Positions 1-43,842 of a DNA stretch of 48,489 bases are shown piece by piece (the first letter of the stretch is position 1; every line of letters starts with the position of its first letter). Under the pieces are notes generated by a model. The model was not told where the DNA came from. It did not search any database and worked only from the letters and a program-made list of their open reading frames with translations. A program made the position numbers and the translations under genes. This DNA is from Gammaproteobacteria bacterium (lineage in GTDB: Bacteria; Pseudomonadota; Gammaproteobacteria; Burkholderiales; Burkholderiaceae_C). The stretch covers positions 1 to 48,489 of the forward strand of contig JANYHL010000042.1 in assembly GCA_025359085.1 (NCBI GenBank). Reading direction: 5' to 3'.

Positions 1-2795
1 TCCAGCAGCGTGTGCAGCTTGCGCGCAATGGTCGGCACGGCTTTGAAATACTCATGCGCCGCTTCGACCGTGAGCTCCAGAATTTGCGCGATGTTCTTGC
101 CCTTGTACAGCACCTCCAGCGTTTCGCGGTTGTAGCGCTGACCGGCGCAGACGTCGCAGGGCACGTAGACGTCGGGCAAAAAATGCATCTCGACTTTCAC
201 CATGCCGTCGCCCTGGCAGGCCTCGCAGCGCCCGCCGCCACTGGACTGACTTACGTTGAAGCTGAAGCGCCCCGGCCCGTAGCCCCGCTCGCGCGCCATG
301 GGTACCTCGGCCATCAGCTCGCGAATGGGCGTGAACAGGCCGGTGTAGGTGGCCGGATTCGAGCGCGGCGTGCGCCCGATGGGCGACTGGTCGACATTGA
401 TGACCTTGTCAAAGTGTTCAATGCCTTCGATCGCCACATGCGCCGCCGGTTCCTCGTGCGCCCGGTACAGCGTGCGCGCCACTGCAGCGTAGAGCGTGTC
501 GTTGACCAGCGTGGATTTGCCCGAACCCGACACGCCGGTGACGCAGGTGAACAGTCCGACCGGAAATTCAACATCGACACCCTGCAGGTTGTGGCCGCTC
601 GCGCCAATCACCCGCAGCGATTGCAGCTTGCCCTGGGTTGCCAGATGCACTGCTTCACGCGCGGCGCGGCGTAGCGCCGCCGGACTCGGGGCAAAACGCT
701 GCGCCTTGGGCTTCTCCGCGGCTGCCCGCGCCCGCAGCGTGGGCAGCCAGGGCGTGCGTTGGAGCGGCACCGCGATCTGCAGCGTGTGCGCCAGATATTG
801 GCCGGTCAGCGATGCGGGGTTGGCCTTGACCTGCTCAAACGTGCCCTGCGCCATCACGCGCCCGCCGTGCAGGCCCGCACCCGGCCCCATGTCGATGAGG
901 TGGTCGGCCGCGCGCATCATGTCTTCATCGTGCTCCACCACCAGCACGCTGTTGCCGATGTCGCGCAGGTGTTTCAGGGTGCCAATCAGGCGGTCGTTGT
1001 CGCGCTGGTGCAGGCCAATGCTGGGCTCGTCGAGCACATACATGACGCCGGTCAGTCCGGAACCGATCTGGCTGGCCAGCCGGATGCGTTGCGACTCGCC
1101 GCCGCTTAAAGATTCGGCGCTGCGGTCCAAGCTCAGGTAGTTGAGGCCGACATCATTGAGAAACTTCAGCCGCAGGCCGATTTCATGCACCACTTTGCTG
1201 GCGATCTCACCCTTGGCGCCGTGCATTTTCAGCGTGTTGAAATACTGAAAACTCTCGCGCAGCGTTAAATGACTGAGCTCAAATATGGCACGCGCATGCG
1301 CACCTTCGCCAATCTTGACGTGGCGCGCCTCCAGCCGCAGCCGCGATCCGCCGCATTCCGGACAGGGCTGGGTGTTGCGGTAGCGTGCCAGGTCTTCACG
1401 CACCACGGCGGAATCGGTCTCGCCGTAACGCCGCTGCATGTTCGGGATGATGCCTTCGAACGGGTGCTTTTTGCTCACCTTCTTGCCCGTTTGAGTGCCC
1501 GAGTCCATCACGTAGCTGAACTTGATGTCCTCTGCACCCGACCCAAACAGCACCGCCTGTTGCACCGTTGGCGGCAGCGATTCAAAGGCCTGCTCTATAT
1601 CAAACTGGTAGTGCGCCGCCAAGCTCTCCAGCATGGCAAAGTAGTAGGCGTTGCGCCGGTCCCAGCCCTTGATGGCGCCACTGGCCAGGCTCAGCGTGGG
1701 GAACGCCACCACCCGCGCGGGGTCAAAAAAATCGTTCGCGCCCAGGCCGTCACAGGCTGGGCAGGCGCCGACGGGGGAGTTGAAGGAAAACAGCCGGGGC
1801 TCCAGCTCGGCAATCGAGTAATTGCAGACCGGGCACGCGAATTTGGCATTGAATATATGCTCGATTGGCCTGTGACCCCCGTCTTTATTGGCTGTATTGC
1901 TATCTATTTCTACAGCAATCGCGCGCCCGCCGGTCAAGCGCAAAGCGGCCTCAAAGCTCTCAGCCAGGCGTTGGCGCAGATGCTCGAAGTCGGTTTGCGC
2001 GGCGCGGCGTGCAGCGTCGGGCGCAGCGTCGCTGGTCGCGTCGGATTCGGTGGCGCCGCCTGACCCGGCGCTTGCCAGCGGTGCCGGGGCGTGGCGCACC
2101 TTGACGCGGTCAATCACCACGTCGATGTCGTGCTTCTCGGTCTTCTTGAGCGTGGGCAGGTCCTCAGCGTCAAATGCCTGTCCGTCGACCCGAAAGCGCA
2201 CATAACCCTGCGCTTGCATGTCGGCAAACACCTCCAGGAACTCGCCCTTTTTTTCGCGCGCCAGCGGCGCCAGGATCATCAGCCGGGTGTCAGGTGGCAG
2301 CGCCAGCACGGCGTCCACCATCTGGCTCACGGTCTGCGACTGCAGTGGCAAATCGTGTTCCGGGCAAAACGGCGTGCCGGCGCGCGCAAACAGCAGGCGC
2401 AGGTAGTCGTGAATCTCGGTCACGGTGCCCACCGTGGAGCGCGGGTTGTGGCTGGTGGCCTTCTGTTCGATGGAAATCGCGGGCGACAGGCCCTCGATCA
2501 GGTCCACATCGGGCTTGTCCATCAGTTGCAGGAACTGGCGCGCGTAGGTGGACAGGCTCTCGACATAGCGGCGCTGGCCTTCGGCGTACAAGGTGTCAAA
2601 GGCCAGGCTGGACTTGCCCGAGCCGCTCAAACCGGTGATCACCACCAGCTGGTTGCGCGGGATGTCGAGGTCGATGTTCTTCAGGTTGTGCGTGCGCGCA
2701 CCGCGAATGCTGATGTTCTGCAACTGCAGGGCCTGGCCCAAATGCTGGCCCTGCGGCTGGGCTGCGGGGACGATGGCGTCGTGAGTTAAGTTCAA
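1..2795 (-). CDS. uvrA: UvrA, excinuclease ABC subunit A (3' end outside window)
   Basis: UvrA is the ATP-dependent damage-recognition subunit of the UvrABC nucleotide excision repair complex. Reading the minus strand from 2795, the frame stays open to the window edge, giving about 931 codons; roughly the last 100-130 residues are missing. Seen: the conserved N-terminal block [14 protein letters not shown], Walker [17 protein letters not shown], the zinc-binding stretch FACPVCNYS followed by LEPRLFSFN, and the ABC signature [19 protein letters not shown]. No ATG lies in frame upstream, so the start is probably the TTG at 2795-2793; a later start is possible. Two oddities: a ~25-residue Ala/Ser/Asp-rich insertion (about 1985-2090), and an in-frame copy of the ~65 bp repeat (1849-1921) just before the first CxxC, encoding about 15 extra residues. 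No LexA-type box was seen upstream. Identity is certain; the start is not. Confidence 0.96.
1849..1921 (+). repeat. Comamonadaceae-type ~65 bp repeat, copy 1, in frame inside uvrA
   Basis: The order atatgc, a ggcctgtga block, cccccgt, then tgctatctatttct matches the other copies (for example 19048-19117). It lies antisense to uvrA, has a length compatible with the frame, and encodes about [12 protein letters not shown] in UvrA, ahead of the zinc-finger CPVC. Confidence 0.7.
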
Positions 2796-2964
2796 GGTGA
2801 AATCTGGTCGGGGAAACCTGCCATGATAGTCAAGGCCGGTTGACTTGGCACTTTTTCTGAAGCGCCAAGCGTTGGACTGCTGGGAATTCAGAGCCAATAC
2901 GGTGTGGCCGCACGGTCAGACCCGGTCTATCCGGCCAGCCTCGCCTCTGCCAGTTTGAGAGTTC

Positions 2965-3029
2965 AATAACTATTAAAAAAGTAGCGCATTACGCATATCT
3001 GACGGGGGCTAGAGCCTGATTTGTAAAAA
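2965..3029 (-). repeat. ~65 bp repeat, copy 2, at left edge of the defence island
   Basis: The intergenic stretch 2796-3032 has no supportable gene. Its right part is a repeat copy: an AT-rich actattaaaaaagtagc end, then gggggctagagcctgattt. It ends 4 bp before the res stop codon. Its orientation is opposite to copy 3 at 10990-11050, so the pair forms an inverted bracket around the island. Confidence 0.75.
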
Positions 3030-3032
3030 ATG

Positions 3033-5993
3033 TCAAAACGACAAACTGGTCTGCTGCGACGCATGGGCCAGCGGCCGCAGGCGGGCAAAGTCGAGCAAAT
3101 CCGCCAGCCGTGCGCCCTTGGCTTGCCAGTCTTTCACCACGTCTTCACCCAGCAGCACATATTGCCACGGCGCACCGCCACGCTGTTCGATGCTCAAACC
3201 GTTGATGCGCTCGCACCACGCCAGCGCGGCTTTCAGCTTGCGCTGCACGTTGGGGTGAATGGTTTGCTGCTGCGCCTTGGTTTCCACCAGATACACCGCG
3301 CCCGCCGTGCGCACCAGAAAGTCGGGTGAATAAAAAGCGGGCAGGCCGTCATCCTTGACGTAGCGCAGCCGTGCAAACGTATGTCGGTTTTCGCTGATCT
3401 TGCAAAAGGCCTGCACTTCCGTGTCGGCCTGCGCCCAGTGGATGAAGGCGCGTTCCAGCCCGCCGTTGCGCGCGGGCCAGGCGAGCCGGGTGTAGATGCA
3501 CTTGGACACCTCGACTGAATGGCTTTCGCGCATCATCAGGCGCGGCATTTCTGACAAACGACGCAAATGCACCTCGGTCTGGCCGGTGATGTGCTTTTGC
3601 TCCGACTCCAGCAAGGCCACAGCAAACACTTTGGTCATGTGATCCACCACCGGCTGCAGCAGCAACACGCGCCAGTTCTCGTCGTCCAGCGGGTTGAACG
3701 TCGCACCGAAGAGCTGCGTCCAGATGTAGTCGTCCAGCCAGCCGGTCAACTCGGCCGTATTCACCTGCAAATAAGGCTTGGCCATATGCGTCGCCACCTT
3801 GTTGCCTTTTGGTACCGGTTCGCTCAGCGCCTGGCTGATACGCCTTGTGAGTCGCGACAAATATTCGTTGTAGCCGCCCACGTTCATCACCGCGCCATCC
3901 ACGCGGTAGTCGCCAAACAGGGTGGCGCTTTGCAAGTCCTGGGAAATAAAGGTGTCGCCCTTGCCCAGCAGCCCGGTGAGTTGCGCCACCGTCATGGCGG
4001 TGAAAACGGGCAGAGTGGTCAGGTCCAGCGCATGGTGGTCACGCACCTCGTCGGCTTCTTGCAGGATGAACGGAATACCGAAGTCAAACGCCTCGTAACC
4101 TTCACGCAACTCGGCCGCGATCACGTCGCCGGTTGCGCTGGTGTCGTCCATACCATCACCCGTGGTGCCCGCCAGACCCTCCTGAATCAGCTCGTCGTAA
4201 AACGATTGAAAGGCTGGGTGCTCCACAATCGACAGCACATCCAGCAAGCTGTCGGGCTCCTGTCCGGCGTTGATGCGTTCGCGGTTCTCGTGCTTGAGGT
4301 CGGTGTATTCGTCATCGCGCCACATCAGCCTTAAGCCCCGGCCAATGGTCTGCTCCAGCAGAATCTGCGCTTGCGAACTGCGCAGCGGCACGATGACGCA
4401 GATGTTGTTCACGTCAAAGCCCTCACGCAGCATCAGCACGCTGACGATCACGCGTGGCGTGGCGTGCTGGTCCACACTGAACAGGCGCTGGCGCACCGGT
4501 GCCCAGTCTTTCTCACCCAGTTCGGCCTTCTTGCCGGAGTCGATCAGCATGACTTCGTCTTCGTTCAGACCTTCCTGATCCTGCAAAAAAGTGGCGACCA
4601 GCGGCGACACCGTGGTGTCCTCGCACACCACCAGCATCTTGGGGTGGCGCGTGGGGTCAATCCGGGCAAAGTCGGTTTCCAGTTTGCGCAGTTTCTTCAA
4701 GCCGGCGCGCAGCATCACGCGCTGGCCTTCGCTCAAGGCCGGGTTGCCCTGCTCATCGCGCTCGGCCTTGAACTCCAGCGGCAGCGCACCAATCTCCTTG
4801 CGCCGGTCCAGCACCAGCGACTTCACCAGCCCGGCCCGCATGGCGCTTTTCAGGTCAAAGTCCGTGACGATGTGCGGGAAATACACCTTGCGTTTGGTTT
4901 TGCCAGCGCCCACGTCGTTGTAAGGCGTGGCGGAGAAATCGACCTGCACAAAACGCCGGCCCTTGGTTGCGGCAATCTTCGAGAGGCTTTTTTGCCATTC
5001 CACCTCGGTCGATTCACCCTCGCGTTTGAACTCGTGGATGTGGTGCGCCTCATCGTTGAACACCATCAGTTCCGGCAAGCCGGCCAGAAACTCCAGCACA
5101 TTGCCGCGTGCATAGCGCCGGTCCAGCACGTCCAGACTGTTGCCGGTGGCGCGCCCAGGCGTGAGCGGCAGCACGGCGTTGATCACCTGCTGCGGGTCCA
5201 GCGGCGCGCCCAGGGCTTCGATTTCTTCCACATCTTCGGCGACATCGCCTTCATTAAGCAAATGCCAGTTGGTGATGGCGATCATGCCGTTGCCGGTGGC
5301 TTTCAGGCCGATTTCGTTTTTATTGCAGACGTTGCCGCGCACAAAGGCAAACACCGCGTCGCGGTGGGTATCGGGCATGAACAGGTCGGCAAAGCGGGCT
5401 ATGTCAGAACTGGCAAAGTCACGCGAGCCATTGCCGTTTTCGATCAGCTTGCCGCAAAACGCGTCCAGCAGCCGCTCATAAACAATCAAGCCTGGCGCCA
5501 CCACCATGAACTGGCGGGTAAAACGGGCGTCGTCAATGCCTTCCGCCAGCGCCGCCGTTTTGTTGAGCAGTTGCCAGATCATCAGCGCCTGCAGCACCCA
5601 GGTTTTGCCGGTGCCGGTGGCCATCTTGAAGCAGTATTTGGGATGCGCGTGCTTGGCCTGCGCTACCTCGTTCAAGCGCGTGCCGGTCAGCAGCGCGTCG
5701 GGCGCGCAAGCCTTGTAGAGGTCCAGCAGTGTCCAGTGCGCATGCCCGTGGCCCAGCACCTCATGCGCGACGATGGCGTTCAGAATCGCCTGCTTTTGCC
5801 CAGTATGAAAATTCAGCCCGCTGCGTGCCAGCACCATGTCCTCGCCAAACCACCACATCAGCAACTCGGCAGTGGTGGGCGTGACCAGCTCCAGAATATC
5901 GGCGGCACCGGATTCGAGACCCAGACAGAGTTGGTTGGTTTTGGCGGTGAGGCCGATGGAGAGGGCGAGTTGGTTGTTTTGGGATTGGGGCAT
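3033..5993 (-). CDS. res: Type III restriction enzyme, Res subunit (helicase-endonuclease)
   Basis: A 986-residue superfamily 2 helicase-nuclease, the usual Res length. Together with Mod it forms a type III restriction enzyme that translocates or slides on DNA using ATP and cuts near pairs of unmodified sites. Seen: Walker A MATGTGKT at about residues 124-131, DEAH in FNDEAHHIHE at about 314, the SAT motif DFSATPYND at about 356, the arginine-finger motif IGRGLRLMW at about 551, and a C-terminal PD-(D/E)xK-like core, PDFLVR followed by YLVETKA, at about 890-905. All key residues are present, so it should be active. Res normally follows mod directly. Here it is separated from mod by a HEPN-like gene and by two genes on the opposite strand. 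Its start lies 48 bp from that of the divergent phosphoribosyltransferase. Confidence 0.93.
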   Translation of the reverse strand: MPQSQNNQLALSIGLTAKTNQLCLGLESGAADILELVTPTTAELLMWWFGEDMVLARSGLNFHTGQKQAILNAIVAHEVLGHGHAHWTLLDLYKACAPDALLTGTRLNEVAQAKHAHPKYCFKMATGTGKTWVLQALMIWQLLNKTAALAEGIDDARFTRQFMVVAPGLIVYERLLDAFCGKLIENGNGSRDFASSDIARFADLFMPDTHRDAVFAFVRGNVCNKNEIGLKATGNGMIAITNWHLLNEGDVAEDVEEIEALGAPLDPQQVINAVLPLTPGRATGNSLDVLDRRYARGNVLEFLAGLPELMVFNDEAHHIHEFKREGESTEVEWQKSLSKIAATKGRRFVQVDFSATPYNDVGAGKTKRKVYFPHIVTDFDLKSAMRAGLVKSLVLDRRKEIGALPLEFKAERDEQGNPALSEGQRVMLRAGLKKLRKLETDFARIDPTRHPKMLVVCEDTTVSPLVATFLQDQEGLNEDEVMLIDSGKKAELGEKDWAPVRQRLFSVDQHATPRVIVSVLMLREGFDVNNICVIVPLRSSQAQILLEQTIGRGLRLMWRDDEYTDLKHENRERINAGQEPDSLLDVLSIVEHPAFQSFYDELIQEGLAGTTGDGMDDTSATGDVIAAELREGYEAFDFGIPFILQEADEVRDHHALDLTTLPVFTAMTVAQLTGLLGKGDTFISQDLQSATLFGDYRVDGAVMNVGGYNEYLSRLTRRISQALSEPVPKGNKVATHMAKPYLQVNTAELTGWLDDYIWTQLFGATFNPLDDENWRVLLLQPVVDHMTKVFAVALLESEQKHITGQTEVHLRRLSEMPRLMMRESHSVEVSKCIYTRLAWPARNGGLERAFIHWAQADTEVQAFCKISENRHTFARLRYVKDDGLPAFYSPDFLVRTAGAVYLVETKAQQQTIHPNVQRKLKAALAWCERINGLSIEQRGGAPWQYVLLGEDVVKDWQAKGARLADLLDFARLRPLAHASQQTSLSF

Positions 5994-6041
5994 GGCAATG
6001 AGAGAGATTTAAAAAGGGGTCGGCGTGGGAAAATGTGGCCA

Positions 6042-6764
6042 ATGTCCGAGAACATCAAACCGCCGCGTACCGCATGGGGCAACTTCCCTGACGTGCTGAT
6101 CCACGCCAACGAGTCGGCGGTGAAGCAGCATCCCGCTTACAAGCGGGCCAAGTCGGGGCATGGCCCTTCGGCTACTGTCGTGGTCAATGACACGATGAGT
6201 GAGCTGCAAAATCAGCAACTTGTCGATTTGCTGCGAGGTCACGCGCCCACGCTGGTGAGCGCCCATGCGTACGAGCGCGAAGGCATCAACGCTATTCCCC
6301 AAGCGTTTGCGGTGGAGATCAGCAAAGCTGTCGGTTGGCCGCACGACCTGGGCGTGGCGCAAATCAACGTGGTGGCTCACACGGGGGCGGATGGTTTCTC
6401 GCGGCTGGCTCGCCAGGCCGAGTTCGCCGGGGCGGTACAACCAGGGTGCGAATACGTGCTGGTCGACGACTTCGTAGGCATGGGCGGCACACTGGCGAAC
6501 TTGAAGGGCCATATCGAATCCAAAGGCGGGAAGGTGCTTGCGGCGGTGTGCTTGACCGGCAAGCCCCATTCCGCCAAACTGGCACTGTCGCCGGAACGCT
6601 TGCAAGAATTGAGGGAAAAGCATGGAACAGAACTTGAGAACTGGTGGTTTGGACGATTCGCTCACACCTTCGACGCGCTTACTGAATCAGAAGCTCGGTA
6701 CCTCGCCCGCACCGAGACGTTTGACGCCATCCGAAATCGAATTGCTGCTGCAAAGCAAGCGTGA
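6042..6764 (+). CDS. Phosphoribosyltransferase-fold protein in the R-M island
   Basis: A 240-residue protein with the PRPP-binding motif of type I phosphoribosyltransferases, YVLVDDFVGMGGT at residues 138-150, where D142-D143 are the acidic pair that holds the ribose. Known members move phosphoribosyl groups between PRPP and bases, but nothing here indicates the substrate, and I do not recognise the narrower family. The ATG at 6042 is chosen because MSENIKPP looks like a natural N-terminus; the ATG at 6033 is in frame and possible. The gene is divergent from res with 48 bp between starts. Its last 143 bases overlap a small downstream gene in another frame, suggesting translational coupling. 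Its placement inside a type III R-M locus suggests a role in defence, perhaps nucleotide-based, but this is inference. Confidence 0.8.
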   Translation: MSENIKPPRTAWGNFPDVLIHANESAVKQHPAYKRAKSGHGPSATVVVNDTMSELQNQQLVDLLRGHAPTLVSAHAYEREGINAIPQAFAVEISKAVGWPHDLGVAQINVVAHTGADGFSRLARQAEFAGAVQPGCEYVLVDDFVGMGGTLANLKGHIESKGGKVLAAVCLTGKPHSAKLALSPERLQELREKHGTELENWWFGRFAHTFDALTESEARYLARTETFDAIRNRIAAAKQA

Positions 6765-6828
6765 GTTGGCCGAGCAAGCCTTTGCAACACCCACGCGTGC
6801 GTCCACACACAAAGTTGTAGCGGCATAA
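6622..6828 (+). CDS. Small 68-residue protein overlapping the phosphoribosyltransferase gene
   Basis: This frame begins inside the phosphoribosyltransferase gene and runs 64 bases past its stop. It is supported by a good ribosome binding site, gaggga at 6611-6616, six bases before the ATG. Residues 34-50 (RLTPSEIELLLQSKREL) read as a helix with charged and aliphatic spacing, preceded by a polar, Pro/Thr-rich N-terminal half. I have a general memory of short bacterial proteins with an LTPSEIELL segment but no known function. It could be a partner or inhibitor of the phosphoribosyltransferase. The alternative is a chance overlapping frame, since most of it lies over another coding sequence. Confidence 0.55.
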   Translation: MEQNLRTGGLDDSLTPSTRLLNQKLGTSPAPRRLTPSEIELLLQSKRELAEQAFATPTRASTHKVVAA

Positions 6829-6884
6829 AGTAGTCTCCGCCATGCGGCTGGCATCGAAATCGGCGTTGGGGGTGTGATGCACGA

Positions 6885-7550
6885 TTAGGCTTCCGAGGAA
6901 GCATCTTGTGTCGCTAGCGCCTCAACGGCGGCGGTATAGGAGCCCGACGCGCTCACCAGACTGAACCAGAAAGTGAGAAATTTTTCGAATGATTCGATGG
7001 AAAGGGTCAATACATTCCATCCGACTCTTTTTCTTTTGCAGCCTGACCCTTCCCTGTGTTCCGAGAAAAATGTCAACTTTTCGATTTTTTGCACGTCAGT
7101 GCCAAATGCCACGATATTGTTGTGTGCTAGCGCATTTCTGAGAATGGAAAAGGCGAAGCTCACGTTTTGGTCAGCGAGATTGATAGGTGTGCCTTCGCCA
7201 TATTCACCTACCTTTCTGACATCCTTCAGCTCCGCACAGCGCGCGAGTTTTGCTTCTTTTAATACGCTGCTGCTTTGCAGGGTTTGCGAAAAAATATCTT
7301 TGAATTTTTGCAGTGTGGTTTGATAACTCACCTGATCCACAGCATCAAACCCCGGATGATCAGGTCGAGAGTTTCGATACGCAGGGATATTGATGTCTTC
7401 AAGGGGCATCGCCAATCCCGCAGCCGCAGCCATCAACATGACCGTTACTGACAAGTCTTCTGTCTCGTTGTCGGTATGCGCTTTAGCTCTTTCCCAAACC
7501 TTAAAAACACGTGAAGGCAAATCACGGTAAATGTCTTGGTAGTTGCTCAT
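6885..7550 (-). CDS. HEPN-motif protein between mod and res
   Basis: A 221-residue, mostly helical protein with no signal peptide. The informative feature is ILRNALAHNN at residues 136-145: R138-N139-x3-H143 fits the R-(polar)-x3-H motif of HEPN domains, which in many toxins and defence proteins is an RNase active site. The helix before it (about 126-137) and the helices near 75-110 are in keeping with a four-helix HEPN fold. It starts 21 bp downstream of the mod stop on the same strand, so it is probably co-transcribed with mod. HEPN proteins are known accessories of R-M systems; it may be an RNase that acts if restriction fails, or a MazE-like accessory with no catalysis. Base composition is slightly more AT-rich than in the housekeeping genes. 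Confidence 0.72.
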   Translation of the reverse strand: MSNYQDIYRDLPSRVFKVWERAKAHTDNETEDLSVTVMLMAAAAGLAMPLEDINIPAYRNSRPDHPGFDAVDQVSYQTTLQKFKDIFSQTLQSSSVLKEAKLARCAELKDVRKVGEYGEGTPINLADQNVSFAFSILRNALAHNNIVAFGTDVQKIEKLTFFSEHREGSGCKRKRVGWNVLTLSIESFEKFLTFWFSLVSASGSYTAAVEALATQDASSEA

Positions 7551-7571
7551 GAATAGCTCTCAGGAAGGGTT

Positions 7572-10299: not shown

Positions 10300-10304
10300 A
10301 TCTA

Positions 10305-10989: not shown

Positions 10990-11050
10990 AATTTATGCCA
11001 AATAAGCCTGTAGCCCTTGTCAATACGACGTGAGCAGCTATTAATTTTGA
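10990..11050 (+). repeat. ~65 bp repeat, copy 3, at right edge of the defence island
   Basis: Reads atttatgccaaataagcctg, then tagcccttgtcaata, a variable part, and agcagctattaatttt. It lies in the 10962-11238 gap, which holds no supportable gene. Inverted with respect to copy 2. Confidence 0.82.
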
Positions 11051-19047: not shown

Positions 19048-19117
19048 ATTTATATGCCAAATCAGGCTGTAGCCACCGTACTTACTACGTAGCTTGCTAC
19101 TATTAGTATAGTAAAAA
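19048..19117 (+). repeat. ~65 bp repeat, copy 4, between convergent genes
   Basis: Reads tttatatgccaaatcaggct, then gtagccaccgtacttact, and a small hairpin tactat-tagt-atagta at the end. It fills the gap between the repressor stop and the mnmA stop and may serve both as transcription end structure. Confidence 0.8.
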
Positions 19118-32693: not shown

Positions 32694-32759
32694 AATTTAT
32701 AAGATAGAGGGCACTGGCCCTTGTCGCGCTTGCGACCCCAGCTATAAATTAAATAGCGC
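32694..32759 (+). repeat. ~65 bp repeat, copy 5, abutting a start codon
   Basis: Reads aatttataagatagaggg, then tggcccttgtcgcgcttgcg, and a gctat-aaattaa-atagc hairpin end. It fills the whole gap between the phzF-like stop and the phosphatase start, so any leader of the phosphatase mRNA passes through it. Confidence 0.78.
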
Positions 32760-34505: not shown

Positions 34506-34569
34506 TTTATATGACAAATCAAGCGCTAGCCCTTGTCAATAGTGCATAAGTAGCTATGTTAAAAATAGC
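34506..34569 (+). repeat. ~65 bp repeat, copy 6
   Basis: Reads tttatatgacaaatcaagcg, then ctagcccttgtcaatagtg, and a gctat-gttaaaa-atagc hairpin. It lies in the 34451-34731 gap, upstream of the racemase and pointing the same way relative to it as copies 5 and 8 relative to their genes. Apart from it and the next promoter, nothing supportable lies in the gap. Confidence 0.82.
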
Positions 34570-34694
34570 ATTCCAGCGCCTTCGGCTGAAAGCGGCCGTG
34601 CCCAGCGCGGGCCGCATGACGCAGTGCCAGATGCCCACGGCAACCGCCCGAGACAGGTCAACCGGCGTCAGTAACGATTGGGTGTCACTTTGGA

Positions 34695-34724: not shown

Positions 34725-34731
34725 GCAGCGC

Positions 34732-35463: not shown

Positions 35464-35551
35464 CGCCGCTGGGGAGTCTGGCGCGGCAGGGTCGCGCCCA
35501 ATCCGCTATCCTTGAGGCTCGCAAACAACCGCATGTCCTGCTCTCCTGGCT

Positions 35552-36418
35552 GTGTCAGACCCCCATCCCACGCGTCCCGATCGGGAAGATAAACGCACAT
35601 TTCTGCGAAAACTGGCCGAGTTCCTTCACCCCGGGCCGGACTCGACCGACGAGCTGATTGCCACGCTGGCAGAAGCCGAAGACAACGAAATCATTGGCGC
35701 CGAGTCGCTCCGGATGCTCGAGGGCGTCATCGGCATGGCCGACATGACGGCCGGTGAAGTGATGGTGCCCGCCACCCAGATGGAGCTGGTCAATATCGCC
35801 GACCCCTACGATGTGATGATGCATGGCGTGATTGATACCGCGCACTCGCGCTTTCCGGTGTATGACGGCGAACGCGAAAACATTCTTGGCATTCTGATGG
35901 CCAAGGACTTGCTCAAACTCCAGCGCGCGCCTGAACTCAACATCCGCGCCTTGTTGCGCCCGGCGGTGTTTGTGCCGGAAAGCAAGGGGCTCAACGACCT
36001 GTTGCGCGATTTTCAGAGCAACCACAACCACATGGCGATCGTGATCGATGAATTTGGCCGGGTTGCCGGTCTGGTCACGATCGAGGACGTCCTGGAAGAA
36101 ATTGTGGGCGAGATCGAAGATGAGTTCGATATTGACGAGGATGAAGGGGATATTTATGGTCTGGCCGACCGCAGCTACCGCGTCAGTGGCGACACGCCGA
36201 TCGAGCGCGTGGAGAACGCCTTTGGCGTCAAGTTGACCGGCACCGACCCGGACGACGAGTTTGACACCATTGGCGGCTTGATTGCCCATGAAATGGGCCA
36301 TGTTCCCAAGCGCGGGGAACGTCATGTGCTGGCCGGCGTCAACTTTGTGGTGATGCTGACCCAAGGCGGGGCGGTGAAGTGGTTCAAGGTGTCACCGGTG
36401 GCTGAGGCCGCTCCTTAG
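35552..36418 (+). CDS. corC: CorC/HlyC-family protein with CBS pair
   Basis: A 288-residue cytoplasmic protein with two CBS domains (about 65-190) and a C-terminal CorC/HlyC transporter-associated domain (about 205-280). CorC/YbeX has been linked to Mg2+/Co2+ efflux and to ribosome assembly. Seen: MTAGEVMVPATQMELV and ILMAKDLLKL in CBS one, MAIVIDEFGRVAGLVTIEDVLEEIVGEIEDE in CBS two, and TIGGLIAHEMGHVPKRGE in the C-terminal domain. The start is a GTG at 35552. Immediately upstream of lnt, the same order as ybeX-lnt in E. coli, one base between stop and start. Confidence 0.93.
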   Translation: MSDPHPTRPDREDKRTFLRKLAEFLHPGPDSTDELIATLAEAEDNEIIGAESLRMLEGVIGMADMTAGEVMVPATQMELVNIADPYDVMMHGVIDTAHSRFPVYDGERENILGILMAKDLLKLQRAPELNIRALLRPAVFVPESKGLNDLLRDFQSNHNHMAIVIDEFGRVAGLVTIEDVLEEIVGEIEDEFDIDEDEGDIYGLADRSYRVSGDTPIERVENAFGVKLTGTDPDDEFDTIGGLIAHEMGHVPKRGERHVLAGVNFVVMLTQGGAVKWFKVSPVAEAAP

Positions 36419-36419
36419 C

Positions 36420-38099
36420 GTGCCGCCCTGCTGGCCTGACACGGGGGTGGCGCCCGCGCCAGCGCTCACGCTGGGGCGCGTGGCCCTGGTCTTGCTGGCG
36501 GGGTTTGCGCAGGCGGCCAGCCTGGCCTGGCCCTGGTCGCTGCCGGACGCTTCTTTTGATCTGTTGGGCTTACGCCCGGGGCAACCCGTTTGGTGGTTGC
36601 AATTGCTGGCGCTGGGCGGGCTGGCCTGGCTGCTGGAAAGCGCCCGCCAGGCCGGTCACGCCAGCGCGGCCAGCAAAACGCATTGGCGGCGCAACTGGCG
36701 CTTGGGCGCCTTGTGGGGGTGCTTGTTTTCCACCGCCTGGTTGATCGGCTCCTTTGGCTGGACCTATGTCGCCATGCACACTTACGCCGGTTTACCGAGC
36801 TGGCTGGCGGCCTTGGCGGTGCTGGCGCTGGCCGCTCTGCTGGCGCTCTACTACACCGCAATTTGTGGGCTTTTTGTAGCGCTAGCCCCCGTCAATAGGG
36901 CGTTTGCAGCTATTGTTTTTGCGTCACTTTGGTTGTTGGCCGAATTGGCGCGCGGCATCTGGTGGACCGGGTTTGGCTGGGGTGCGGCGGGCTACAGCCA
37001 CGTCGAGGGGCCGCTGGCGGGCTACGCCCCGTGGCTGGGCGTGTACGGCTTGTGCGCGTTGGCGGCGTGGCTGGCGATGAGCCTGGTGCAGATCGTGGCG
37101 CCCGATGCGTCTTGGCGCCAGCGGGCCATCACCCTGGCTGCCGCCCTGGGGCTGCTGGCGCTGCCGCAGTTGCAACGCCTGGACGGTGCGGACAGCGCGG
37201 GCTCGAGCGGCCGCCTGGCCGTCACCCTGTTGCAGGGCAACATACCGCAGAACGAAAAGTTTGAACCGGGCAGTGGCGTGCCGCTGGCCTTGCAGTGGTA
37301 CGCCGAGCAGCTCACCCACAGCCGCACCGCGCTGGTGATTTCGCCGGAAACGGCGCTTCCCGTTCTGCCGCAGCAATTGCCCCCCGCCTATTGGCGTGCA
37401 CTGCAACTGCGGTTTGCCAGCGGCCAGCAAGCGGCCCTCATTGGCACCCCGCTGGGCAACGCGCAGGACGGCTATACCAACTCCGTGGTCGGGCTCAAAC
37501 CGGGGCAGTCGCAGCCCTGGCGCTACGACAAACATCATCTGGTGCCGTTTGGCGAGTTCATTCCGCCGATGTTCAAGTGGTTTACCGCGATGATGAACAT
37601 CCCGCTGGGCGATTTCAACCGCGGCGCGCCCCGGCAAGCCCCGTTTGAATGGCAGGGGCAGCGGCTGTCGCCCAATATTTGCGTGGAAGATCTGTACAGT
37701 GAGGAGCTGGGGCTGCTGTTCAGTGAGCCGGCGCAGGCGCCCACTATTTTGGTCAATGTCAGCAACCTGGCCTGGTTTGGCAATGGCTGGGCGATGGACC
37801 AGCACCTGCAGATCGCGCGCCTGCGTGCGCTGGAATTTGCGCGCCCCTTGGTGCTGGCCACCAACACCGGGCTGACGGCGATTGTGGACCACCGGGGCCG
37901 CGTCACCCACGCGCTGGCACGCAACACGCGGGGCGCCCTGGTGGGCGAGGTAGAGGGGCGAACGGGTGTGACGCCTTATGCCTGGTGGGTGTCACGCTAT
38001 GGTCTTTGGCCGCTCTGGCTGCTGGCGCTGGCTGTGGTGGGACTGGGCACGCGCAGCGGCTTGCGAAAACGCCCGTCGTCGGAGCCGCGGTCGTGCTAG
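36420..38099 (+). CDS. lnt: Apolipoprotein N-acyltransferase
   Basis: A 559-residue inner-membrane enzyme that adds the third acyl chain to lipoproteins. Seen: hydrophobic helices over the first ~240 residues, then a nitrilase-like domain with the triad Glu310 (ISPETALPVL), Lys371 (YDKHHLVPFGEF) and Cys421 (PNICVEDLYSEE), spaced as in E. coli (267/335/387). LWLLAELARGIWWTGFGWGAAGYS is the conserved membrane motif. GTG start, one base after corC. Odd: residues 147-169 (AICGLFVALAPVNRAFAAI...) are encoded by an in-frame copy of the ~65 bp repeat inside a membrane helix. The protein is otherwise normal, so the repeat is tolerated. Confidence 0.95.
   Translation: MPPCWPDTGVAPAPALTLGRVALVLLAGFAQAASLAWPWSLPDASFDLLGLRPGQPVWWLQLLALGGLAWLLESARQAGHASAASKTHWRRNWRLGALWGCLFSTAWLIGSFGWTYVAMHTYAGLPSWLAALAVLALAALLALYYTAICGLFVALAPVNRAFAAIVFASLWLLAELARGIWWTGFGWGAAGYSHVEGPLAGYAPWLGVYGLCALAAWLAMSLVQIVAPDASWRQRAITLAAALGLLALPQLQRLDGADSAGSSGRLAVTLLQGNIPQNEKFEPGSGVPLALQWYAEQLTHSRTALVISPETALPVLPQQLPPAYWRALQLRFASGQQAALIGTPLGNAQDGYTNSVVGLKPGQSQPWRYDKHHLVPFGEFIPPMFKWFTAMMNIPLGDFNRGAPRQAPFEWQGQRLSPNICVEDLYSEELGLLFSEPAQAPTILVNVSNLAWFGNGWAMDQHLQIARLRALEFARPLVLATNTGLTAIVDHRGRVTHALARNTRGALVGEVEGRTGVTPYAWWVSRYGLWPLWLLALAVVGLGTRSGLRKRPSSEPRSC
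36860..36920 (+). repeat. ~65 bp repeat, copy 7, in frame inside lnt
   Basis: The central gcgctagccccc-gtcaata core and the following gcagctattgtttt align base for base with copy 6 (34506-34569). It lies sense to lnt and encodes hydrophobic residues in a membrane helix. Confidence 0.82.
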
Positions 38100-38198
38100 G
38101 CTGGCGCGCTTGTCCAAGCCTCGTAAAATCAGCATTTGCACGCGTGCAGGCGTGTCGTTTTCAAAAACCCAGGGCGTAGCCCGCATCAGCACCCCCTT

Positions 38199-39104
38199 AT
38201 GTTGACCTTCCAGCAAATTATTTTGAAACTGCAGTCCTACTGGGCCGAGCAGGGCTGCGCCTTGCTGCAGCCCTACGACATGGAAGTCGGCGCCGGCACC
38301 TCGCACACCGCGACATTCTTGAGGGCGCTGGGGCCGGAGCCCTGGAAGGCGGCCTACGTGCAGCCGAGCCGCCGCCCGAAAGACGGCCGCTACGGCGAAA
38401 ACCCGAACCGCCTGCAGCATTACTACCAGTACCAGGTGGTCTTGAAGCCAGCCCCCAGCAACATTCTGGAACTGTACTTGGGCAGTCTGGAGTCGCTCGG
38501 CTTTGATCTGAAGAAGAACGATATCCGTTTCGTTGAGGACGACTGGGAAAACCCGACCTTGGGCGCCTGGGGCCTGGGCTGGGAAGTCTGGCTCAACGGC
38601 ATGGAAGTCACGCAGTTCACCTATTTTCAGCAGGTCGGCGGCATTGACTGTCGGCCCATCACCGGCGAGATCACCTATGGCCTAGAGCGCCTGGCGATGT
38701 ACCTGCAAGGCGTGGACAACGTCTACAACCTGCAGTGGACCGAGGGCTTGCGTTATGGCGACGTCTACCTGCAAAACGAAAAAGAGCAGTCGGCCTACAA
38801 CTTCGAGCACAGCGACGCCGACTTCTTGTTCACCGCTTTCACGGCGCACGAGCGTCAGGCCAAGCACCTGATTGAGCAGCAGTTGGCCCTGCCTGCCTAC
38901 GAGCAGGTGCTCAAGTGCGCGCACAGCTTCAACCTGCTCGACGCTCGGGGCGCCATCAGTGTGACCGAACGCGCCGCCTACATCGGGCGCATCCGCAACC
39001 TGGCGCGCGCCGTGGCGCAGAGCTATTTTGAGAGCCGCGAACGCCTGGGCTTCCCGCTGGCGCCGCGCGAGTGGGTGGCGCAGATGACCAAGAAGGCTGC
39101 GTGA
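38199..39104 (+). CDS. glyQ: Glycyl-tRNA synthetase, alpha subunit
   Basis: A 301-residue catalytic subunit of the bacterial-type tetrameric glycyl-tRNA synthetase. Seen: the class II start [66 protein letters not shown] (motif 2 with the ATP-binding Arg), [10 protein letters not shown], and [26 protein letters not shown] near the end. The ATG at 38199 is chosen over an in-frame upstream start (38136) because the family always begins MLTFQ. The glyS gene follows 41 bp later. The 38100-38198 gap has no gene and no clear promoter. Confidence 0.98.
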
Positions 39105-39145
39105 TCAAGCAAGCTCAGCCGAACAGCATAAAAGAATAGTTAACC

Positions 39146-41407
39146 ATGACGACTCAAAACCTTCTCGTTGAATTGTTTGTTGAAGAGCTGCCGCCCAAGG
39201 CGCTCAAGAAGCTGGGCGAGGCGTTTGCCAGCCAGCTCGGTGAACAACTGCGCGCCCAGGGGCTGGCCAGTGCCGCATCGGTGGTCACGGCCTATGCCTC
39301 GCCGCGCCGTCTGGCGGCCCACATCACCCAGGTTTGGCACAAGGCCGCCGACCAGGCGGTGCAGCAAAAACTCATGCCGGTGAGCGTCGGGCTGGACGCC
39401 GCCGGCCAAGCTACCCCCGCGCTGATCAAGAAATTGCAGGCGCTCGGTGCGGAGGTTTCCGACCCGGTGGCGGCGGTGGCGGCGCTGCGACAAGCCCCCG
39501 ACGGCAAGGCGCAAGCGCTGTTTTACGACAGCCTGGTCAGCGGCGCCACGCTTGACGCCGGCCTGCAAAAGGCGCTGGAGCAAGCGCTGGCCAAGCTGCC
39601 GATTCCCAAGCTGATGAGTTACCAGCTGGAGGCCGATTGCGAGTTGCCGGGCTGGAGCAGCGTGCACTTTGTGCGCCCGGCGCACGGCCTGGTGGCGCTG
39701 CACGGCAGCACCGTGGTGCCGGTCAAGGTGCTGGGGCTCACGGCGGGCAACAGCACCCAGGGCCACCGGTTCGAGGCCCGCGTCTCGCCGGTGCTGATCG
39801 CGCATGCCGACGACTACGCCACCACCCTGGCACAAGACGGCGCCGTGACGGCCAGCTTTGCCGAGCGTCGCAGCGACATCGTGCAGCAGTTGGAGGGCGC
39901 CGCGGCTGCGCTGGGCCGCAGCGACCCGCGTGGCTCACACGCCGCGCTGCACCCGATTGAAGATGAAGCGCTGCTGGACGAGGTGACGGCCCTGGTGGAG
40001 CGCCCCAACGTGCTGGTGTGCCAGTTTGAGCCCCAGTTCCTGGAGGTGCCGCAGGAGTGCCTGATCCTGACCATGAAGGCGAACCAGAAATATTTTCCGC
40101 TGCTCGATGATGCAGGCCAGCTGAGCAACCAGTTTCTGGTGGTCAGCAACATCAGTCCGGTGGACGCCAGCTTTGTCATTGGCGGCAACGAGCGCGTGGT
40201 GCGCCCGCGCCTGGCGGATGCCAAGTTCTTCTTCGACCAGGACCGCAAGAAGACGCTTGCTTCGCGCGTCGAAGGACTGGACAAGGTCGTTTATCACAAT
40301 AAGCTGGGCTCACAGCGCGATCGTATGTTTCGTGTGCAGGCCATCGCCATCGCTATCGCTCGCCAACTTAAGGAGGCGGGCGTCAGCACAATTGATGACG
40401 GACCAGCAGGCACTGCGGCCATGCTCGCCAAGGCCGACTTGCTGACCGACATGGTGGGCGAGTTCCCCGAACTGCAGGGCATCATGGGCGGCTATTACGC
40501 GCGCCATGACGGCCTGGGCGAAGAGATTGCCTGCGCCATTGAAGACCATTACAAGCCGCGTTTTGCCGGAGATGAACTGCCGCGCAATTTGGTAGGCGTG
40601 GTCGTGGCGCTGGCTGACAAGCTGGAAACATTGGTGGGAATGTTCGGCATTGGCAACTTGCCGACTGGCGACAAAGACCCGTTTGCGCTACGCCGTCATG
40701 CGTTGGGGGTGGTGAGGATGCTTGTGGAAAGAGACTTGCCACTGGATTTATATAAGCTGCTTGTGTTGGCCGAGGGACTTGTTGATAACGCGTTGGCCGA
40801 TAAAGGCATTGACAACAGCCAGACGGTGCTTACCGCAACTGGTCAGCCTATTAAGGAATTGACGCATAGGACGATTCGTTCGATTGCACCGTTAACGGCA
40901 GAGTTTCTGCTTAGTTTCATCTATGACCGCCTCGCCGGAAGCTTGCGCGAACAGTCGTTCAATTCGCAGGAGGTCGATGCTGTACTGGCGCTTCAGCCAC
41001 AACGCCTGGGCGACATCCCCAAGCGCCTCGCCGCCGTGCGCGCCTTTGCCGCGTTGCCCGAAGCCCCGGCGCTGGCCGCGGCCAACAAACGTATCGGCAA
41101 CATCCTCAAAAAAACGCCTGACGTGGACCCGCATGTCAGCGAAGTGCTGCTGCAGGAACCTGCCGAAATTGCCCTTTTTGCCGCGATGCAGTCACTGGTG
41201 CCGCAGGCGAATGCGCAGTTTGAAGCGCTTGACTACACCGCCTCGCTGCAAACCCTGGCGGCGCTGCGCGCGCCGGTGGATGCGTTCTTTGACAGCGTGC
41301 TGGTCAATGCCGAACAATTGGACTTGCGCCTGAACCGCCAGGGCTTGCTGAAAAGCCTGCACGGCGCCATGAACCGCGTCGCTGATCTGGCGCGGCTGGC
41401 GGCCTGA
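39146..41407 (+). CDS. glyS: Glycyl-tRNA synthetase, beta subunit
   Basis: A 753-residue subunit that binds tRNA-Gly and is required with GlyQ for charging. Seen: NLLVELFVEELPPKALKKLGEAF at the start; ASPRRLAAHI; the conserved MKANQKYFPLLDDAGQLSNQFLVVSNI; RLADAKFFFDQDRKK; the HD-like core with VALADKLETLVGMFGIGNLPTGDKDPFALRRHALG; and a C-terminal anticodon-binding-like region. Length is normal. Odd: about 40,290-40,980 is clearly AT-richer at third positions than the flanks (ctt, gtt, gat, tta, ata), as if replaced by recombination, while the protein remains intact. Confidence 0.97.
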   Translation: MTTQNLLVELFVEELPPKALKKLGEAFASQLGEQLRAQGLASAASVVTAYASPRRLAAHITQVWHKAADQAVQQKLMPVSVGLDAAGQATPALIKKLQALGAEVSDPVAAVAALRQAPDGKAQALFYDSLVSGATLDAGLQKALEQALAKLPIPKLMSYQLEADCELPGWSSVHFVRPAHGLVALHGSTVVPVKVLGLTAGNSTQGHRFEARVSPVLIAHADDYATTLAQDGAVTASFAERRSDIVQQLEGAAAALGRSDPRGSHAALHPIEDEALLDEVTALVERPNVLVCQFEPQFLEVPQECLILTMKANQKYFPLLDDAGQLSNQFLVVSNISPVDASFVIGGNERVVRPRLADAKFFFDQDRKKTLASRVEGLDKVVYHNKLGSQRDRMFRVQAIAIAIARQLKEAGVSTIDDGPAGTAAMLAKADLLTDMVGEFPELQGIMGGYYARHDGLGEEIACAIEDHYKPRFAGDELPRNLVGVVVALADKLETLVGMFGIGNLPTGDKDPFALRRHALGVVRMLVERDLPLDLYKLLVLAEGLVDNALADKGIDNSQTVLTATGQPIKELTHRTIRSIAPLTAEFLLSFIYDRLAGSLREQSFNSQEVDAVLALQPQRLGDIPKRLAAVRAFAALPEAPALAAANKRIGNILKKTPDVDPHVSEVLLQEPAEIALFAAMQSLVPQANAQFEALDYTASLQTLAALRAPVDAFFDSVLVNAEQLDLRLNRQGLLKSLHGAMNRVADLARLAA

Positions 41408-41440
41408 GCCGCTGGCTGCGTCCACAACCCCATGGGCACC

Positions 41441-42022
41441 ATGAAACTCGTCATCCTCGACCGTGACGGCACCCTGAATCAGGACAGTGCCGAATTCATT
41501 AAAACCCCCGAAGAATGGCTGCCCTTGCCCGGCGCGCTGGAGGCGATTGCCCGTTTCAACCATGCCGGCTGGCATGTGGTGATTGCCAGCAACCAGTCCG
41601 GCTTGGGGCGTGGTTTGTTTGATGTGTCGATGCTCAATGCGATCCACGCCAAGATGCACAAGATGCTGGCGGCGGTCGGTGGCCGGGTCGATGCCGTCTT
41701 TTATTGCCCGCACGCGCCCGATGAGGGCTGCCACTGTCGCAAGCCCGAGTCTGGCCTGTTTGAACAAATTGGCGAGCGCTATGGGGTGGACTTGCGCGGT
41801 GTGCCAACGGCGGGCGACACGGCGCGCGATGTGCTGGCGGGCGCGCGCGTGGGTTGCGAGCCTCATCTGGTGCTGACCGGCAAGGGTGCCGCCTACCGCG
41901 GTCGGCGTTTGCCGCATAACTTTCCAAAGGCGACGCAGGTGCATGAAGATCTGGCCGCCTTGGCTGACTTTTTGATTGCGCGGGATACGGCCAAGACTGA
42001 GCGGGCGACTACAAAGTTATAA
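41441..42022 (+). CDS. gmhB: D-glycero-beta-D-manno-heptose-1,7-bisphosphate 7-phosphatase
   Basis: A 193-residue HAD-superfamily phosphatase in ADP-heptose synthesis for lipopolysaccharide core. Seen: the nucleophile motif LDRDGTLN at the N-terminus; SNQSGLGRGLFD; the zinc-binding loop CPHAPDEGCHCRKP (Cys, His, Cys, Cys); and AGDTARDVLAGARVGCEPHLVLTGKG with the last acidic residues. ATG at 41441 (MKLVILDRDGT) chosen; 41432 adds MGT. Odd: the stop taa at 42020-42022 is the first part of a ~65 bp repeat, so the last residues TTKL and the end of the protein are set by that insertion. The original C-terminus may have been a little longer. Confidence 0.92.
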   Translation: MKLVILDRDGTLNQDSAEFIKTPEEWLPLPGALEAIARFNHAGWHVVIASNQSGLGRGLFDVSMLNAIHAKMHKMLAAVGGRVDAVFYCPHAPDEGCHCRKPESGLFEQIGERYGVDLRGVPTAGDTARDVLAGARVGCEPHLVLTGKGAAYRGRRLPHNFPKATQVHEDLAALADFLIARDTAKTERATTKL

Positions 42023-42076
42023 AAATAGTAGCTGCTCAGGCAGTATCCACGGGGGCTAGAGGCCTAAAACGCATAA
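42017..42076 (-). repeat. ~65 bp repeat, copy 8, spanning gmhB stop to plsC start
   Basis: Reads ttataaaaatagtagctgct, then a variable part, gggggctagaggcctaaaac and gcataa, ending at the A of the plsC ATG. It supplies the stop codon of gmhB and the whole intergenic region, including whatever ribosome binding plsC has. Confidence 0.82.
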
Positions 42077-42811
42077 ATGTTACTGATTCGCTCCCTGTTG
42101 CACATGGCCTGGTTGCTGCTCACGGTGATTCCGTGGGGGCTGGCGCTGGTGCTGATTTCGCTCTGGGTGCGCCGCACCACGCTGTGGTGGTTTGCCGTCA
42201 ACTGGTTCCGGCTGGTGATTTGGGGCACGCGCGTGTTGCTGGGTGTGCGGGTGCGCGTCAATGGCTTGGAACACTTGCCAGCGGGTGCCACCCTGCCCGC
42301 AGTTTTGCTGTGCAAACACCAGTCCACGCTGGAGACGCTGCTGATCCCGACCTTGATGCCGCGCCCGCTGGCGTTTGTCTTCAAGCGCGAACTGTTGCGC
42401 CTTCCGTTTTTTGGCTGGTCGATGGCGCGGCTGGACATGATCCACATTGACCGCGAGTCCCGCGCCCTGGCCATGAAGCATGTCATTGAGCAAGGAAAGC
42501 GGCGCCTGGCGCAAGGGACCTGGGTCATCATGTTTCCCGAGGGCACGCGCATCGCGCGCGGCCAAACCGGCACCTATCAAACGGCGGGCACCCGGCTGGC
42601 GGTGGAGACCGGGGCGCCGGTGGTGCCGATTGCCGTGTCGTCCGGCAAATGCTGGCCGCGCCAGGGTTTCATCAAGCACCCCGGGGTGGTCGATGTCTCG
42701 ATTGGCCCGGCCATTGCCAGCGTCGGGCGCGAACCCAAAGAGCTGATGCGCGAGGTACAGGCCTGGATCGAAGCCGAAATGCGCCGGATTGACCCCGACG
42801 CCTACTTGTAA
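42077..42811 (+). CDS. plsC: 1-acyl-sn-glycerol-3-phosphate acyltransferase
   Basis: A 244-residue inner-membrane acyltransferase that makes phosphatidic acid. Seen: an N-terminal hydrophobic helix (LLHMAWLLLTVIPWGLALVLISLWV); the H-x4-D/E motif as KHQSTLETLL, with Glu in the acidic place, a variant usual in this group; FKRELLRLPFFGW; and FPEGTRIARGQTGTYQTAG, which binds the phosphate. The last part is cytoplasmic. Starts directly at the end of repeat copy 8, with no separate Shine-Dalgarno sequence. It continues the envelope cluster (lnt, gmhB) in this region. Confidence 0.95.
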   Translation: MLLIRSLLHMAWLLLTVIPWGLALVLISLWVRRTTLWWFAVNWFRLVIWGTRVLLGVRVRVNGLEHLPAGATLPAVLLCKHQSTLETLLIPTLMPRPLAFVFKRELLRLPFFGWSMARLDMIHIDRESRALAMKHVIEQGKRRLAQGTWVIMFPEGTRIARGQTGTYQTAGTRLAVETGAPVVPIAVSSGKCWPRQGFIKHPGVVDVSIGPAIASVGREPKELMREVQAWIEAEMRRIDPDAYL

Positions 42812-42821
42812 GCGCCGCGCG

Positions 42822-43763
42822 ATGCATCCCTTGCTCCGCTTTACGCTTGATCTGTTTGAGCCAAATTGGGCACCAGCCCGCGAGAATAAAGCGCCACTAG
42901 CTATTGAAATAAGAGCGTCAGAGGGCTTGCCGGTCAACCCGCCGCCGCCGCCCGCGCCCGCCCCGGTCGCGGCTCCCAGCAGCTGGCGCCACCCGCGCGC
43001 CAATCGCGAAGCCCGGTTGTGCGACCGGCTGGTGGCCTACGAGTTCAAGCGCGGCCAGCGCCGCAGCATTGGGTTTGTGATTCGACCCGAAGGGCTGGTG
43101 GTGAGCGCGCCCAAAGGGGTGCCTCTGCATCAGGTGGACGCGGCGTTGCGGGATAAATCGCACTGGATTGTCCAGAAACTGGGTGAGACGCAAGCGCGCC
43201 AGCAGCGCCTGCTGGCGCGTCGCATCGCGTGGTGTGACGGCGCGATGATTCCGTACCTGGGGCAGTTACTGCGGCTGTTGCTGGTGCCGCAGCAAGCCGC
43301 CGCTGGCGCGGGCGTCAAACTGAAAGCGGGGGCCATCGGCATGGCTGAACTCACGCAGGCCGATGCGCCGGGCCTGACGCTGCGCCTGACGCTGCCGGTC
43401 GACGCCACGCCGGATCAAATTCGGGATGCAGTGCAAGCCTGGTTGAGGCGCCAGGCGCAGCAGCTCTTTACCAAACGGCTGGACCACTTTGCTCCGCAGC
43501 TGCAGGTGCAGTGGCGCAGGCTGGCCCTGAGCAATGCCCGCACCCGCTGGGGCAGCGCCCGCATTGACGGCTCGATCCGGCTCAACTGGCGCCTGATGCA
43601 CTTTCAGCCCGCCGTCATCGACTATGTGGTGGTGCATGAACTCAGCCACTTGCGGGTGATGGACCACAGCCCGCGTTTCTGGGCCACCGTGCAGGCGGTC
43701 GTGCCAGACCATGTGGCGCTGCGCCGGCAACTCAAGGACGAGGCCTTGCCACACGGTTTGTGA
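42822..43763 (+). CDS. YgjP-like M48/DUF45 metallopeptidase
   Basis: A 313-residue protein of the YgjP/WLM metallopeptidase family. Seen: a Pro/Ala-rich N-terminal extension of about 60 residues; RGQRRSIGFVIRPEGLVVSAPKGVPLHQVDAALRDKSHWIVQKL; RRLALSNARTRWGSARIDGSIRLNWRLMHF; and the zinc motif VVHELSHLRVMDHSPRFW (HExxH plus a downstream His). No signal peptide, so it is probably cytoplasmic; the substrate is unknown. The ATG at 42822 is used; an in-frame start at 42789 overlaps plsC. Odd: residues about 24-33 (APLAIEIRAS) are encoded by half of a ~65 bp repeat in frame. Confidence 0.9.
   Translation: MHPLLRFTLDLFEPNWAPARENKAPLAIEIRASEGLPVNPPPPPAPAPVAAPSSWRHPRANREARLCDRLVAYEFKRGQRRSIGFVIRPEGLVVSAPKGVPLHQVDAALRDKSHWIVQKLGETQARQQRLLARRIAWCDGAMIPYLGQLLRLLLVPQQAAAGAGVKLKAGAIGMAELTQADAPGLTLRLTLPVDATPDQIRDAVQAWLRRQAQQLFTKRLDHFAPQLQVQWRRLALSNARTRWGSARIDGSIRLNWRLMHFQPAVIDYVVVHELSHLRVMDHSPRFWATVQAVVPDHVALRRQLKDEALPHGL
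42889..42915. repeat. Half copy of the ~65 bp repeat inside the YgjP-like gene
   Basis: The stretch ctagctattgaaataagagc matches the hairpin end of the family (compare the uvrA copy, which encodes the similar IAVEIDS). The central tagccc(tt/cc) block is not present. Confidence 0.45.
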
Positions 43764-43805
43764 CCCGCCCGGCGCGCCTGGCTGGGGCTGTTGTTGTGGT
43801 TTGAT

Positions 43806-43842
43806 AGCCCTTGACGGTCGCGCTGCGTGCTAAGCTGGTAAG
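43806..43842 (+). repeat. Possible degenerate repeat copy upstream of the aminotransferase
   Basis: atagcccttgacggtcgc followed by gctgcgtgctaagctg has the tagcccttg core only. The rest of the 43764-43897 gap shows nothing beyond the ribosome binding site of the next gene. Confidence 0.3.

Follow-up and report, generated by a model that had tools for sequence, protein, structure and literature searches.

The window analysed here is the whole 48,489-nucleotide contig JANYHL010000042.1 (C118) of a 3.16-Mb genome, coded G000, whose lnt gene has Rhodoferax metagenome-assembled genomes as its closest named matches. It carries copies of a short dispersed element of ~64 bp that is probably a recognition site in double-stranded DNA, read by a trans-acting factor. 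Such a site would occupy more than 100 fixed places, some intergenic and some in permissive loops of core proteins. Selection, or a recombination drive favouring the motif, would maintain it, since a DNA-binding factor acting in trans would read it. If that factor were lost, all sites would decay together. We infer this reader, and the joint decay that would follow its loss, from sequence.

The element is abundant. The core CTAGCCCNNGTCAATA, with at most one mismatch, occurs at 22 places in the G000 genome against one for a reversed control pattern, and a sequence-only profile built from 25 copies (R1) matches at least 150 places at E ≤ 7e-7 (the best 150 of 1079 candidates), so that copy number is not that of chance. 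The consensus from 124 aligned copies is AATTTTATGCCAAATCGGGCTCTAGCCCCCGTCAATAATGCGTAAGCAGCTATTAATTTAATAGCAAA; the element spans 64–66 alignment columns, with conserved columns spread along the ~64 bp and no short 9–12 bp core. The two ends of the consensus do not mirror each other as the terminal inverted repeats of a miniature inverted-repeat transposable element (MITE) would. GC content is 0.44 in genes and 0.40 elsewhere, in a window of 0.61. A broader model (R2) finds at least 150 copies in G010, a complete genome of the same genus, and the 150 best of these have no strand or arm bias, which rejects a replication-polar motif. A profile scan of the family, as the first-pass annotation of the window had proposed, gave matches in 31 of 120 genomes (G000 included) at E ≤ 1e-5. 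That annotation was right about a repeat family common to Rhodoferax and Polaromonas relatives, with some copies in frame in core genes. In an order-wide draw of 150 genomes three had matches: G000, a second member of its family and, with one weak match only, a genome from another family. Copies are dispersed, not tandem. On G000 contig C7, a pair of almost identical copies 4 kb apart (L024 and L025, ~2.7 and 6.8 kb) has similar flanks, which suggests a segmental duplication.

Placement was scored for 130 copies in 133 G000 loci with a simple codon-usage gene finder. After removal of one double count from 35, 34 of 129 distinct copies lie in frame inside open reading frames (ORFs), 21 in sense and 13 in antisense. 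The remaining 95 comprise 63 between co-oriented genes (34 in the same and 29 in the opposite orientation), 22 between convergent and seven between divergent genes, and three at edges. Host genes, by Pfam match, include mutL, purL and dnaX (two copies each), leuS, truB, pyruvate dehydrogenase E2, a tRNA_U5-meth_tr-type methyltransferase, a kdo transferase and dsbD; uvrA and lnt were identified by NCBIfam, and the short names RlmD, KdtA, YfiH, HrpA and Rlu are our interpretation of Pfam matches. The information profiles of in-gene and intergenic copies agree (r = 0.91).

Comparison with the closest relatives by lnt, G145 and G146, reveals that the element is conserved as DNA. A match is present at the site in all 50 ortholog rows, which cover 29 of 32 loci (12.9–57.9 bits; ≥20 bits in 47 rows); three loci fall outside these rows, and the lnt element is nonetheless present in both relatives. 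Across the 29 genes, amino-acid identity is 0.700 inside the element and 0.846 in the flanks, whereas codon identity at unchanged residues is 0.824 inside (617 of 749, with 535 expected from per-amino-acid flank rates) versus 0.701 in the flanks. Taken singly, 27 of the 29 loci have the higher codon identity inside the element, and 23 of 29 have the lower amino-acid identity there. Identity at fourfold third positions reaches 0.916 (n = 167) at columns of ≥1.4 bits, against 0.633–0.697 at columns below 1 bit and 0.678 in the flanks, and is 0.444 at the 27 positions where G000 departs from the consensus. Sense copies stand at 0.880 versus 0.709 for their flanks, and antisense copies at 0.872 versus 0.750. 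The constraint therefore acts at the DNA level, independently of orientation, and the sites descend vertically. Fifteen column couplings exceed the permutation maximum; 14 of them join columns one or two apart (AA/TT at 13–14, TA/AT at 36–37), and the single distant coupling (44–66) is not complementary. Because the couplings join near neighbours, they suggest that DNA shape is read, not a hairpin.

Presence is near all-or-none by species. Of 90 ortholog loci, 86 were scanned with R2, presence being a match at E ≤ 0.01. Five positive species of the genus carry the element at 44 of 46 orthologous in-gene sites (G004 9/10, G005 6/7, G010 15/15, G013 4/4, G014 10/10), and five negative species, not one clade, at one of 40 (G001 0/7, G003 0/10, G006 0/11, G012 0/7, G015 1/5). 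A tree of four proteins with element regions removed, used in place of an unresolved tree of the transposase described below, groups G001, G012 and G015 with G000, G145 and G146 (99/100), and G003 with G004, G005, G010 and G013 (100/100). The negatives thus form at least two lineages, since they fall with positives in two well-supported clades. The same sites are used in both clades, which leads us to infer that the sites are ancestral and were lost in concert, and points to a putative trans-acting factor.

Several observations weigh against a recognition site with a trans-acting reader. Good support exists for no more than two separate negative lineages, the third (G006) being weakly placed, and two genomes are intermediate (G149 with one of five loci, G150 with four of five). 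R2 itself was built from an alignment that included ten of the 44 positive sites. Third-position identity at consensus columns, 0.815 in positives (n = 389) and 0.458 in negatives (n = 203) with flanks at 0.615 and 0.563, comes from a comparison that is partly circular, positives having been called by motif, and from non-independent pairs. Spacing and strand of the 150 best G010 matches look random, and junction spacers of like length without a recognised element exist (e.g., L091). No reader was found. As to what the reader would be, a receptor for DNA uptake or self-recognition is a tentative guess, and a chromosome-organising protein a slightly more doubtful one. As a competence gene that might track the element, ComEC does not discriminate: its domain is present in 15 of 16 positive and all 14 negative genomes, and the positive genome G067 is without it. 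Uptake would therefore be one hypothesis beside a chromosome-organising role.

The loci differ in what they suggest about how sites are gained. At lnt and mutL the length hardly changes, if at all, whereas several loops exceed those of other families by 3–16 residues and the junction between gmhB and plsC has gained ~60 bp. Most aligned relatives have the same length at the lnt site with or without the element (nine are longer by 3–13 residues and two shorter by 1–2). One mutL copy occupies a conserved ATPase motif without length change, and G012 has a near-identical peptide written in other codons. Two findings had been named beforehand as arguments against a repeat family. A chance-level copy number was not observed; the other, that relatives without the repeat have conserved coding sequence at its position, partly applies to mutL, as its peptide is native and its codons alone are element-like. 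The G000 gene (L184) holds two copies, and at the one in the ATPase domain rare-looking codons fit the element while the peptide is native. As this copy sits in a native domain, the element may have originated in mutL, and in-place tuning fits equally. In 11 genomes of the genus, 16 of 17 query segments with orthologs aligned differ in length by −12 to +9 residues, and a gap of a whole element (~22 residues) was never seen in these comparisons. Whole-match lengths in nine genomes of other families are mostly shorter than in G000: by 3–4 residues for TruB (6/8), 7 for RlmD (7/9; one 0, one 11), 3–8 at the second PurL site (9/9), 7–8 for Rlu (4/4), 4–12 for YfiH (7/8) and 15–16 for KdtA (2/2), with MutL not shorter (0 to 7 longer). 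The gmhB and plsC genes overlap in several relatives, and in G000 and others ~60 bp of element lies there. No pair of filled and empty sites was found in close relatives; the single attempt at an empty site, for the 34506 copy in L069/L070, met an upstream region that is not syntenic.

These data bear on how the copies arose and why they stay alike. The first-pass annotation compared the family to small MITE- or REP-like elements (REP, repetitive extragenic palindromic sequence). Mobility of the MITE kind does not hold as the main account: sites are stable across species, orthologs keep locus-specific letters, and synonymous consensus letters are conserved. A related reading holds that a selfish element, formerly mobile and comparable to the Rickettsia palindromic elements (RPEs), inserted in frame long ago and that its copies are now only decaying; it would explain in-frame copies in many unrelated genes, loops that in most comparisons exceed those of other families of the order, and the gain at gmhB-plsC. 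We consider it improbable, as it would leave synonymous conservation on consensus columns unexplained, no relative is short by a whole element, the mutL site is native protein, and the 50 ortholog rows of the closest relatives contain neither gain nor loss. Gene conversion among copies could also keep them highly similar at consensus columns, but at low-information columns orthologs agree at 0.69–0.72 and paralogs at 0.31–0.38; orthologs thus keep locus-specific letters, and concerted evolution by conversion is hardly credible. An RNA element, such as a terminator or a processing or regulatory hairpin, is very improbable in our view. The small GCTAT-ATAGC hairpin noted at one end earlier does form in 91.3% of cells, slightly more than in shuffles, of which 20 in 500 do as well, with covariation that is marginal (19 of 500), and for 56 of 92 copies outside genes the closest gene boundary is a 3′ end. 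However, RNAalifold returns no consensus pairs, the other stem is not above shuffles (454 of 500), both orientations relative to genes are equally constrained, and no window copy matches Rfam at gathering thresholds. Together with the neighbour couplings, RNAalifold and the stem shuffles leave an RNA hairpin unsupported.

The likeness to REPs stands in one respect, an intact gene for a REP-associated tyrosine transposase (RAYT) with a copy at its 3′ end, on the same strand, in several genomes. In a REP-type family, a single-copy RAYT would recognise the element and spread or keep it, a reading we regard as unlikely. The RAYTs of G000 (its only one) and G010 exceed the NCBIfam cut-off for this transposase. 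The 3′ copy is present in G000, G010, G056 and G060 (29.6–36.4 bits) and in G145, G146, G147, G148 and G005 (24.6–43.3 bits), and is weaker in G124 (13.2) and G014 (11.3); G000, G145 and G146 have a second copy upstream. Yet the gene is retained, with open frames, in 21 of 22 same-genus genomes, including all five element-negative species, and in four of five element-negative genera, which rejects the idea that the element disappears through loss of RAYT. No copy was found at the RAYT of the positive species G004, G013 and G011 or the positive genus G027, the traces seen in G040 and G067 fall short of significance, element copies lie within genes, and covariation in the hairpin is marginal. 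RAYT also has its own, different end sequences, generally not near element copies (1/5, 1/3 and 2/6 sites, all few). RAYT may account for the origin of the family, not for who maintains it. The RAYT genes of several genera (L443, L444, L445-L455) are flanked by GGGGTCAGA... and ...TGTCCCCAATT-type sequences, distinct from the element. On G000 contig C37 (L009/L156, 33.8–36.2 kb) three copies lie within ~2.4 kb, at least one with the RAYT-end-like GGGGTCAGATTCCAATTA alongside. G040 has ~20 PF01797 matches; because many are identical, an active IS200-like element is present there besides RAYT.

In the window, scanned by R1 with filters off, seven clear copies and two weak or degenerate ones (1876 and 32696) were found (Table 1). 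The first-pass annotation had listed at least eight copies, a half copy at 42889 and a doubtful one at 43806. The half copy is in fact a full-length degenerate copy beginning at 42855, and the R1 scan found no copy at 43806. Six copies (34506, 42015, 10990, 2967, 19049 and 36863) were in the R1 seed alignment and match by construction, whereas 42855, 1876 and 32696 were outside it. Of the two in-frame copies reported earlier, the one in lnt is confirmed in sense, and occupies the same place in L069, L070, L071, L073, L075 and L145; the one in uvrA is degenerate and antisense to the gene. The uvrA stretch scores 20–21 bits in G145 and G146, and uvrA of the same-genus G001 and G012 lacks 10 residues at this site. 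The site in the YgjP-like ORF scores 21 bits at the equivalent place in G145. The 34506 copy overlaps the racemase ORF if that ORF is taken from a TTG start.

Table 1. Element copies and two further features of the window (positions on the contig; scores from R1).
Position	Strand	Score (bits)	Setting
1876..1909	+	13.9	Degenerate copy in uvrA (gene on −), antisense
2967..3031	−	48.3	Between ResIII-helicase ORF (3033-5993, −) and uvrA (start 2897, −)
10990..11050	+	56.5	Intergenic, upstream of MFS transporter ORF (Pfam MFS_1)
19049..19114	+	46.2	At mnmA 3′ end (mnmA on −), convergent with coding segment on left
32696..32757	+	10.1 (E = 0.025)	Degenerate copy filling gap between PhzF-like and histidine-phosphatase genes (both −)
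34506..34571	+	56.8	Intergenic, between racemase gene (−) and GNAT acetyltransferase gene (+)
36863..36921	+	45.7	In frame in lnt, sense, reads LAPVN
42015..42078	−	56.6	Fills junction between GmhB-like HAD gene and PlsC-like acyltransferase gene
42855..42916	+	28.2	In frame near start of YgjP-like ORF, sense; outside R1 seed
3033..5993	−		986-aa ORF with type III restriction (ResIII) helicase domain; possible restriction system adjoining uvrA
48366..48489			Start of 16S rRNA gene, cut by contig end

If the recognition-site reading is true, many genomes of a common environmental family would carry a genome-wide DNA code over their core genes, paid for in protein conservation and lost in its entirety in some species. 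Positive and negative species within one genus would then offer a direct route to the reader protein, and fast-evolving loops in such proteins can mirror a DNA signal, not protein adaptation.

Among similar systems already described is a motif of Polaromonas naphthalenivorans CJ2, ATAGCT(N)22CAAAAG, with 125 copies, 18 of them in genes, and no known function (PMC5217627). Its first hexamer and 22-base spacing are those of ATAGCT(N)22CTAGAG in the element, whereas the second hexamer agrees at four of six positions, and PMC5217627 gives the motif alone, with neither the full element nor how it is conserved or distributed among species. A relaxed pattern of this type at 22-base spacing has 79 matches, all element copies by eye; the exact CJ2 pattern has none among the 488 loci examined. 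In the openly accessible literature, with subscription papers and preprints outside the search, no description of the element was recognised, this motif being the sole fitting item. The betaproteobacterial repeat element (BRE) is described from Bordetella, Polaromonas and Rhodoferax, with some copies in coding sequences, as ~90 bp long, 69% GC in Bordetella and often tandem (PMC3110155); the present element, at 64 bp, GC 0.40–0.44 and dispersed, is set apart by that description, not by its letters. RPEs also have in-frame copies in many unrelated genes, and are described as ~150-bp palindromes added to genes, whose repeat identity is lost with time (PMC10969869); the present element, by contrast, is conserved as DNA and does not lengthen its host genes by a full copy. 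REPs with RAYTs share short dispersed repeats, a single-copy RAYT and a copy beside its gene. They are described as 20–40 bp palindromes (PMC3733652) and are extragenic by name, whereas the element is 64 bp long, apparently largely unpaired, in frame in a quarter of cases and missing in RAYT-bearing species.

DNA uptake sequences, known as DUS in Neisseria and as USS (uptake signal sequences) in Pasteurellaceae, resemble the element in their many copies, both orientations and permissive places in core genes. They are denser in the genome than this element. Verminephrobacter eiseniae, which we take to belong to the same family as G000, is relevant to the comparison. It is described as transformable, with hints of sequence-limited uptake, in a source that gives DUS and USS as 9–11 bp (PMC4212676); against this the element has 64 bp, and an uptake role for it would be one by analogy. 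Known uptake motifs are likewise conserved above their surroundings, sit in permissive places of core genes and include old sites common to species (PMC2397512). The element may conceivably, though we would rather doubt it, be a third type of self-recognition (DNA-uptake) sequence, independent of the others: an address tag of Comamonadaceae, 64 bp long and double-stranded, read partly by its DNA shape by a putative receptor, written into mutL and other core genes by synonymous tuning and erased genome-wide on loss of that receptor.

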